A stretch of 34,150 nt of DNA from NCBI GenBank assembly GCA_947631935.1, contig CANRNG010000010.1, positions 1-34,150 on the forward strand, read 5' to 3'. The notes beneath the pieces are model-generated. The model saw nothing but the letters and a program-made list of their open reading frames with translations. It had not been told where the DNA came from and made no database searches. Both the position numbers and the translations under genes were made by a program. This stretch comes from an uncultured Erysipelothrix sp. GTDB lineage: Bacteria; Bacillota_I; Bacilli_A; Erysipelotrichales; Erysipelotrichaceae. Positions within the stretch are counted from its first letter, which is position 1. Each line of letters opens with the position of its first letter. Positions 5,241-26,712 of the stretch are shown piece by piece.

Positions 5241-5651
5241 ATGAAAACAAAAATTGTTTATTTTAGCAGTTCAGGTAATACTGAAAAAATCGCAAATTTT
5301 TTGAATACTTATTTTGAAAATGAAGATGTTACAATTCAAAGCATAGAAGCGGCTACTTTTGAAGAAGATGCTGACATTTATTGTCTGGGATGTCCTGCTT
5401 ATGGGGTGGAGGATCTGGAAATCTATAGTTTCAGACCTTACTATGAATCTTTAAAACCCCAACTAAAGGACAAACATGTGGTGCTATTTGGCTCTTATGA
5501 TTGGGGAGGTGGCGTTTGGATGGATAAGTGGCTTAAGGAAACTGAAGCGGCTGAACCCAAAACACTCACGGCTTTAATTGTTGAAAATGAACCAGACCCA
5601 AAAGCACTGGAAGGGTTTGAAACAATCCTAAATAATGTAAGTTTTTCATAG
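5241..5651 (+). CDS. Flavodoxin
   Basis: The 136-aa protein is a short-chain flavodoxin, a cytoplasmic FMN-binding electron carrier. The phosphate loop SSSGNTEKIA is at residues 9-18. The first isoalloxazine loop is near CPAYGVEDLE (51-61) and the second near GSYDWGGGVWM (about 87-97). A GATAGGAG ribosome site precedes the ATG. It stands alone between the PTS IIB terminator and the small-RNA region, with no obvious promoter, so it may depend on readthrough. Its redox partner is not in the window. Confidence 0.92.
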   Translation: MKTKIVYFSSSGNTEKIANFLNTYFENEDVTIQSIEAATFEEDADIYCLGCPAYGVEDLEIYSFRPYYESLKPQLKDKHVVLFGSYDWGGGVWMDKWLKETEAAEPKTLTALIVENEPDPKALEGFETILNNVSFS

Positions 5652-5686
5652 TTTGAAAGATTTTCATAAATATTTGTAAATTGTTG

Positions 5687-5714
5687 TTGACCTTTCAGAA
5701 AAACCGTGTATAAT
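5687..5714 (+). promoter_or_regulatory. Strong promoter of the candidate small RNA
   Basis: TTGACC (5687-5692), a 16-nt spacer and a perfect TATAAT (5709-5714). The predicted start is near 5720-5721, exactly where a 7-bp hairpin begins. No gene with a ribosome site follows before the terminator at 5837. Confidence 0.75.
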
Positions 5715-5720
5715 GAAATT

Positions 5721-5866
5721 ATAGATAAACAATATCTATGTATAATATGTCCGCTAGAAATATTCTTCAATTCACCATTTCCTTCTAAGCAATTTGTATT
5801 TCCTCCAAATTAAAAAGAATTGAGTAATTTCTATAAAACACATCTTTGTCCGGATGTGTTTTTTTG
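5721..5866 (+). ncRNA. Candidate small regulatory RNA with C-rich loops
   Basis: This is a self-contained transcription unit of about 145 nt between a good promoter and an intrinsic terminator. Hairpin 1 is ATAGATA-AACAA-TATCTAT (5721-5739). A longer stem pairs TCAATTC (5767-5773) with GAATTGA (5817-5823), extended by a wobble and three more pairs. Inside it, AATTTG (5791-5796) pairs with CAAATT (5806-5811) to present a TATTTCCTC loop, and ACCATTTCCTTC (5774-5785) is left unpaired. These pyrimidine/C-rich segments are complementary to Shine-Dalgarno sequences, the usual targeting style of Gram-positive trans-acting sRNAs. I see no match to 6S, SRP, tmRNA or RNase P RNA. A 16-codon ORF (5738-5788) lacks a ribosome site. 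The function is unknown; the transcription-unit call is moderately sure. Confidence 0.6.
5837..5866 (+). terminator. Intrinsic terminator of the candidate small RNA
   Basis: AACACATC (5837-5844) pairs with GATGTGTT (5853-5860), followed by an uninterrupted T run. It ends just before the coaD promoter. Confidence 0.85.
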
Positions 5867-5871
5867 TGAAC

Positions 5872-5900
5872 TTTAACTTTTGAGATATATCGGTTATACT
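5872..5900 (+). promoter_or_regulatory. Promoter for coaD-pncA-pepA
   Basis: TTTAAC (5872-5877), a 17-nt spacer and TATACT (5895-5900). GATATA (5884-5889) and TATATC (5900-5905) form an inverted repeat over the -10. Confidence 0.5.
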
Positions 5901-5928: not shown

Positions 5929-6423
5929 ATGATAAAAGTAATGTATCCAGGAAGTTTTGATCCAATCACGATTGGACATGTTGATTTGATTGAACGCAGT
6001 TCAAAAATGTTTGATGAAGTCATTGTGGCTTTGATGGTTAACGATGAAAAAAACTATTTGTTTGATGTCGACAAAAGAAAACATTTGATTGAAGAAGCGG
6101 TTCAACATTTAAACAATGTAAAGGTTGTCATTGGGAATGGTTTAACTGTAGAGTTTGCAGAAAAGATGCATTGTACGGTTCTTGTAAGAGGGATTCGGGC
6201 TGTCATGGACTATGAAGCTGAGCTTCAACAAGCAACCGCCAACAGAACACTGAACCCTGAGTTAGAGACTTTGTTTTTGGTGGCATCACCGAAGTATTCC
6301 TTTGTTTCTTCAAGCATTGCGCGAACTGTTGCTCAATATGGGGGAAATCTATCTCAGTTTGTACCCAAGAATGTGGAAGTTGCCTTGGTTGAACACTTTA
6401 GTAAAGGAGTTAAAGAATCATGA
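5929..6423 (+). CDS. coaD: Phosphopantetheine adenylyltransferase
   Basis: CoaD joins 4'-phosphopantetheine and ATP to dephospho-CoA, the penultimate step of coenzyme A synthesis in the cytoplasm. The 164-aa length is standard. Visible hallmarks are YPGSFDPITIGH with the nucleotidyltransferase TxGH motif (His17), LVRGIRAVMDYEAE near residue 85-98, and SFVSSSIARTVAQYGG near 124-139. An AGAGGT ribosome site precedes the ATG. The stop overlaps the start of the next gene (ATGA). It is the first gene of a coaD-pncA-pepA unit. Confidence 0.97.
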   Translation: MIKVMYPGSFDPITIGHVDLIERSSKMFDEVIVALMVNDEKNYLFDVDKRKHLIEEAVQHLNNVKVVIGNGLTVEFAEKMHCTVLVRGIRAVMDYEAELQQATANRTLNPELETLFLVASPKYSFVSSSIARTVAQYGGNLSQFVPKNVEVALVEHFSKGVKES

Positions 6424-26497: not shown

Positions 26498-26503
26498 TGA
26501 ATC

Positions 26504-26712
26504 AACATTTTGGATCAAGAGGAAGTACCGATATATTTAGTTTAGAGACTTGTGGGTTGGTGAAACACAAGCTAAATTACTTGGGAAGGGTCGCTTGTGA
26601 AATGGTATTTTGAATTTAAGTAGGGATACCCGTAGTGCTGCGTTAAAGTATTGAGTATAAAATTAGGTGGTACCACGGTTATAGATCGTCCTTTGTGAGG
26701 GCGTTTTTTTAT
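26504..26712 (+). promoter_or_regulatory. T-box riboswitch, valine-specific
   Basis: The 366-base gap before the GNAT gene holds this leader. It contains the T-box motif TTAGGTGGTACCACGG (26663-26678), whose TGGT bulge pairs with the ACCA end of tRNA-Val (discriminator A). Stem I has AGTA (26524-26527), a GGGTTGGTGAAAC distal region, and GTC (26590-26592) followed by a purine as the likely specifier codon for Val. A terminator ends it. Uncharged tRNA-Val would favour the antiterminator and expression of GNAT and valS. The specifier was picked by position and downstream gene, so it is somewhat less sure than the T-box call. Confidence 0.9.
26687..26711 (+). terminator. Regulated terminator of the valS T-box
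   Basis: CGTCCT (26687-26692) pairs with AGGGCG (26698-26703), one wobble, followed by seven T. It is mutually exclusive with the antiterminator that uses the T-box sequence. Confidence 0.85.

Follow-up and report, generated by a model that had tools for sequence, protein, structure and literature searches.

A genus-conserved candidate small RNA with a putative anti-Shine–Dalgarno loop, flanked by a flavodoxin gene and coaD, in Erysipelothrix

Introduction

Binding of Shine–Dalgarno sites by C/U-rich unpaired motifs is established in low-GC Gram-positive bacteria, as described for LhrC (PMC4132741) and IsrR (PMC9410917). LhrC of Listeria monocytogenes is short and intergenic; it has stem-loops, an intrinsic terminator, and, for binding to Shine–Dalgarno regions, three unpaired C/U-rich motifs that are redundant (PMC4132741). 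IsrR of Staphylococcus aureus is conserved at the genus level and contains three single-stranded C-rich regions, of which two lie in loops (PMC9410917). The streptococcal csRNAs belong to the CiaR regulon and have strong promoters with 11-bp phased boxes for an OmpR-type regulator (PMC3091779). For Erysipelothrix, no description of any sRNA was found in the literature searched, which held few subscription papers, and two papers on the genus that deal with RNA or transcripts (PMC4105556, PMC4968806) mention none. Regulatory RNAs of this genus appear to be undescribed.

The DNA analyzed here, referred to as the window, is a 34,150-nt stretch of an uncultured Erysipelothrix sp. (GCA_947631935.1, contig CANRNG010000010.1). 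The genus is borne out by G010, a genome of the same genus whose coaD locus is shared with Erysipelothrix sp. AS09scLD_209 (L029). It contains a candidate sRNA gene between a flavodoxin-like gene upstream (5241-5651) and coaD downstream (5929-6423). Like LhrC, the predicted RNA is short and intergenic, with stem-loops, an intrinsic terminator, and three unpaired C/U motifs. However, LhrC is multicopy, uses UCCC, and has one site in its terminator loop, whereas the Erysipelothrix sRNA has one copy and carries UUUCCUC(C), two of its motifs are enclosed by a long closing stem, and it has no Rfam match. The LhrC arrangement of UCCC in a loop, a single strand, and the terminator loop was not found; the motifs are UUUCCUC(C) and UUGUCC, and the terminator loop is not conserved across orthologues. 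The RNA shares with IsrR its conservation at the genus level, three C-rich unpaired regions, and some stems that are constant in sequence. IsrR is controlled by Fur and targets iron enzymes; for the Erysipelothrix sRNA, the flavodoxin neighbour is only suggestive of a link to iron. Common to the csRNAs (PMC3091779) and this RNA are the short length, terminal stem-loops, and an unpaired anti-Shine–Dalgarno stretch, but csRNAs are multicopy, have an anti-AUG beside the anti-Shine–Dalgarno sequence, and carry TTTAAG-N5-TTTAAG in their promoters, none of which was found here. Instead, the promoter reads TTGAC(A/C/T)-16-TATAAT with TGTAA boxes, and there is no conserved CAU beside the second loop. 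In more general terms, the locus has the own promoter, the intrinsic terminator, and the lack of an ORF expected of C/U-type anti-Shine–Dalgarno sRNAs, and it also has conserved C/U motifs that are unpaired and complement ribosome sites, which is clear for UUUCCUCC only. The best explanation is that the RNA may work similarly to LhrC, IsrR, or the csRNAs, which does not imply homology.

Results

Promoter, predicted start, and terminator of the sRNA gene

The features of the locus are listed below with their positions in the window, their strand, and the evidence.

5675..5680, strand not assigned: TGTAAA box, putative activator site, beginning 12 nt before the -35 element; TGTAA/TTACA boxes recur in relatives
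5687..5714, + strand: sigma-A-type promoter TTGACC-16-TATAAT (promoter scan and alignment of 12 genus genomes)
5721..5865, + strand: predicted sRNA of ~145 nt (folding; the covariance model matches 5719-5865)
5721..5739, + strand: P1, 5'-terminal hairpin ATAGATA-AACAA-TATCTAT (folding, structural alignment, palindrome scan)
5747..5754, + strand: unpaired ATGTCCGC, CTTGTCCT in most relatives (fold ensemble, orthologues)
5755..5833, + strand: P2, closing stem, 5755-5761 with 5827-5833 and 5766-5773 with 5817-5824 (folding, covariation, arm swap)
5778..5785, + strand: loop motif M1, TTTCCTTC, TTTCCTCA in most relatives (86% unpaired)
5791..5811, + strand: small inner hairpin AATTTG/CAAATT, which presents M2 (folding); seen in G000 (centroid) and G010, its place being taken by other hairpins elsewhere
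5799..5806, + strand: loop motif M2, TTTCCTCC, putative anti-Shine–Dalgarno sequence (conservation, pairing energies, ensemble)
5835..5865, + strand: intrinsic terminator AAAACACATC-TTTGTCCG-GATGTGTTTT-TTT (folding; covaries in relatives)
5873..5900, + strand: separate coaD promoter TTAACT-16-TATACT (promoter scan; TATAAT/TATACT at this place in 12/12 genomes)

The initial annotation had proposed a trans-acting sRNA behind the promoter TTGACC-16-TATAAT, and this promoter was recovered at 5687-5714, where it fits at 11/12 positions and ranks first among the 11 promoter-like matches of a 3-kb region. In the promoter alignment, the spacer is exactly 16 nt in 11/12 genomes and 18 nt in one, TATAAT is present in 12/12, and the -35 element reads TTGAC(A/C/T) across the genus. 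The predicted start was said to coincide with a perfect hairpin, and the 7-bp hairpin ATAGATA/TATCTAT at 5721-5739 indeed starts on the predicted +1. It is the sole such palindrome in the window even with two mismatches allowed (0.22 expected), its sequence is near-invariant, and five of its eight pairs never vary in the structural alignment. This constancy at +1 would also suit the operator of a repressor, with a transcript that is mostly unimportant, but the spacing of the half-sites varies with the loop (5 to 9 nt, with arms of 6-8 bp across species), which suits an RNA hairpin better than a protein operator for a dimer, and an operator explains neither the covarying stem downstream nor the conserved loops. 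We therefore regard an operator as highly unlikely.

The proposed intrinsic terminator has a conserved stem that covaries in relatives, although a simple terminator scan did not list it, probably since part of its T-run is absorbed into the A/T-rich stem. As claimed, no ORF of at least 10 aa preceded by a ribosome site was found on either strand in this species. Perfect ribosome sites exist on the opposite strand, which carries GGAGGAAAT, and short frames follow them in some species, as would be seen if the RNA or its opposite strand were a small mRNA encoding a short peptide. This reading is hardly credible, as no frame is kept in length or sequence on either strand, G008 has none of at least 10 aa, it is for the plus strand that promoter and T-run are kept, and a coding pattern would not be expected to include a covarying stem. 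The conserved peptide-coding pattern that would have spoken against an sRNA is accordingly absent.

Distribution in the genus and the family

The sRNA gene was found between the flavodoxin gene and coaD in 12/13 genus genomes, and the flavodoxin gene lies upstream of coaD in all 12 genomes with coaD. The remaining genome, G009 (88% complete, 270 pieces), yielded neither an sRNA match nor coaD. The 12 genomes share a common anatomy, comprising the promoter, the hairpin ATAGAT...ATCT, UUGUCC/AUGUCC, a stem, UUUCCUC, UUUCCUCC, the return stem, and the terminator; UUGUCC/AUGUCC is absent in one genome and UUUCCUC is degenerate in G008, while the second loop reads AUUCCUCC in one sub-group and UUUCCUUC in G012. 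M2 is the best conserved internal motif of the sRNA. The motifs are conserved although the adjoining flavodoxin gene is only 38-48% identical at the protein level.

A covariance model built from nine sequences matched 12/13 genomes at 56-133 bits, with the next best match at about 32. G005, which was left out of the model, scored 86 bits at its site beside coaD, although it falls into one sub-group with G001, G006, and G011. The model revealed no convincing copy in 260 other genomes of the family and nothing above chance at the coaD loci of other genera. Four weak matches outside the genus (30-34 bits) have E-values of about 0.001-0.008 per genome, which over 273 genomes is about chance level. 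One of them is the terminator of a gene for a ribosomal protein; another, next to feoA/feoB in another genus of the family (G024, locus L086, about 1469-1635), looks like an unrelated terminated transcript. This promoter-like, terminator-bounded short transcript candidate has unpaired-looking CUGGGACUCC and CCAUUCC, is probably unrelated to the Erysipelothrix sRNA, and could be a separate sRNA.

Rfam (release 15) contained nothing over the RNA, neither in the window at gathering thresholds, nor at the locus (both strands, E<=10), nor at eight orthologue loci (E<=0.5); the best chance match had 18.8 bits against a threshold of 48. This agrees with the initial annotation, which recognized no known RNA family. 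Elsewhere in the window, a T-box leader (26502-26696, + strand, 115 bits) lies upstream of genes for a GNAT acetyltransferase and a class I (valyl-type) tRNA synthetase.

Independence from coaD

The sRNA immediately precedes coaD and shares its orientation, gene order is conserved, and in several species the terminator ends 47-76 nt before the conserved coaD start. A cis-acting leader or riboswitch, in which the terminator serves as an attenuator setting read-through into coaD, could account for this arrangement. However, a separate coaD -10 element follows the terminator in 12/12 genomes, so the sRNA is an independent gene rather than a coaD leader. Moreover, the distance from the terminator to the conserved coaD start ranges from 47 to 192 nt across species, with extra sequence present and gaps of 143-192 nt in G006, G001, and G011, and in G005 a transposon parts the RNA from coaD while the rest of the RNA is intact. 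The folds revealed no alternative antiterminator pairing, the terminator being a stand-alone hairpin. A coaD leader with terminator-controlled read-through would have no other promoter, and the separate -10 element, the variable distance, and the G005 transposon together make a coaD attenuator unlikely.

The insertion element of G005 (L062, about 1637-2916) lies inside the sRNA terminator hairpin, placing coaD about 1.4 kb away. It has the IS3-type transposase domains rve and HTH_21 in a broken reading frame and inverted ends of 17 bp (GGAACTGACCTAGTTCC), and is accompanied by a CTC duplication of 3 bp. Within it, there is a 54-bit match to Rfam rli23, an antisense RNA of Listeria.

Folding and covariation

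The predicted fold comprises the hairpin at the 5' end, a long closing stem interrupted by internal loops, a small UUUCCUC hairpin (centroid), and the terminator, with a minimum free energy of -24.8 kcal/mol (z-score -2.8; 1/200 shuffles equally good). In the ensemble, TTTCCTTC and TTTCCTCC are 86% unpaired, which bears out the two exposed C-rich loops of the initial annotation, and the single-stranded ATGTCCGC is 98% unpaired, adding a third unpaired C/U element (GUCC) that had been missed. Across all orthologues, the C/U motifs are 62-99% unpaired, compared to 36-52% overall.

Alignment with MAFFT alone misaligned the stems, and RNAalifold on this alignment recovered only the terminator. A manual structural alignment was therefore built, with the individual fold of each orthologue as a guide. 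In this alignment, 96.4% of cells pair, and changes on both sides are found in 15/27 pairs; the covariation score of 0.457 compares to 0.138 in shuffles, none of 500 shuffles reached it, and slid partners abolished the signal. The closing stem is almost fully different in sequence across eight divergent sequence types with its pairing kept, and both sides have changed in 8/9 aligned pairs of P2 across species. As the alignment was guided by folds, it was complemented by an alignment-free arm-swap test, in which P2 arms of the same species averaged -13.3 kcal/mol compared to -6.4 kcal/mol for swapped arms, with only 2/40,320 assignments matching the true pairing, which is itself one of the two. 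Constant in sequence are the 5' hairpin, the unpaired UUGUCC, and the loop motifs UUUCCUC and UUUCCUCC. Hence, stems and C-rich loops, whose loss in relatives had been named as grounds for rejection, are both kept, the stems with compensatory changes.

Pairing with ribosome sites and target searches

The initial annotation had assigned Shine–Dalgarno pairing to both loops. Against 135 ribosome sites of the genus, chosen for having a Shine–Dalgarno sequence, UUUCCUCC paired at or below -9 kcal/mol with 36%, above all 60 permutations (mean 7%, best 27%) and a coding control (3%), and such pairing is plausible for this motif. M1 and the unpaired UUGUCC stretch, in their consensus form, were not clearly above permuted controls and did no better than the best permutations. 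The second loop, which reads UAUUUCCUCCA in its longer form, matches a Shine–Dalgarno sequence together with its A-rich 3' spacer (GGAGGAAA), and presumably has no match in that register to the 16S rRNA 3' end, which makes a simple ribosome mimic less likely.

Upstream of start codons, the 10-mer that complements the second loop was counted 54 times compared to 13 in a backward control, an enrichment that is expected of any Shine–Dalgarno-like word. Pattern searches of the genus genomes gave no nameable or orthologous target, and the genes with the second-loop 10-mer were non-orthologous. No target enrichment was found for the GUCC motif (27 vs. 25) or the first loop (25 vs. 19, several being the antisense of the sRNA itself). 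By eye, many genus genes with TGGAGGAAAT ribosome sites look like genes for transporters, lipoproteins, and surface proteins, the control Shine–Dalgarno pattern being too rare to compare gene classes.

The lack of a conserved mRNA target in these searches would also fit an RNA whose main partner is not mRNA but the ribosome or a protein, the latter in a sponge or scaffold role. The UUUCC repeats would then be protein sites, in keeping with several similar C/U elements that recur at set positions of the structure and do not vary with the changing stems. However, UUUCCUCC pairs with Shine–Dalgarno sites better than its permutations, and the data name no known C/U-binding partner of Gram-positives, which leaves this reading as a doubtful one.

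Upstream boxes

TGTAA/TTACA boxes recur at 5640-5690 of the window and in the orthologues. In the 80 nt before the -35 element, 17 boxes of this motif, which was chosen after looking, compare to 3.8 +/- 1.8 in shuffles (0/300 reaching this number). In 7/12 genomes, the -35 element is preceded by a TGTAA box whose first base is 11-12 nt upstream; an eighth genome has the variant TGTCA, and the box is absent in G004 and G008. In G003, the boxes form WalR/PhoP-like direct repeats (TGTAAAAATAGTGTAAA), and we take TGTAA boxes to resemble half-sites of WalR/PhoP-type regulators. They may hint at an OmpR/WalR-type regulator of the sRNA promoter.

Discussion

As judged by comparative sequence analysis, the locus is an sRNA gene with a 5' hairpin, a closing stem, and a terminator, from which expression is predicted. 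We consider it likely that it encodes an independent, genus-conserved sRNA of ~145 nt that would act in trans via the putative anti-Shine–Dalgarno motif UUUCCUCC, with its promoter perhaps under a response regulator binding the TGTAA boxes. Conserved covarying stems, kept C-rich loops, and the missing coding pattern support the trans-acting sRNA proposed initially, whose mechanism we infer. The transcript would start at the stabilizing 5' hairpin, be held by the long closing stem, and end at the intrinsic terminator. Most likely acting in trans, it would use the exposed UUUCCUCC loop, aided by UUUCCUC and UUGUCC, to pair with GGAGGAAA, i.e., the Shine–Dalgarno sequence and A-rich spacer, of several mRNAs, and such pairing would block translation initiation. 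Control of the promoter by a response regulator on the boxes just upstream of the -35 element is tentatively suggested by their recurrence and position. A more far-reaching version, in which the RNA is a core post-transcriptional regulator with up to three anti-Shine–Dalgarno elements, controlled by an envelope-sensing regulator via TGTAA and tuning membrane and surface proteins, is rather improbable and at best tentative.

Taken together, the RNA constitutes a new family within a known kind of sRNA, with a well-supported gene and a plausible anti-Shine–Dalgarno mechanism. A genus-wide, covarying sRNA provides a handle on post-transcriptional control outside Listeria, staphylococci, and streptococci, and tests whether C/U-loop anti-Shine–Dalgarno RNAs arise repeatedly in low-GC Gram-positives.
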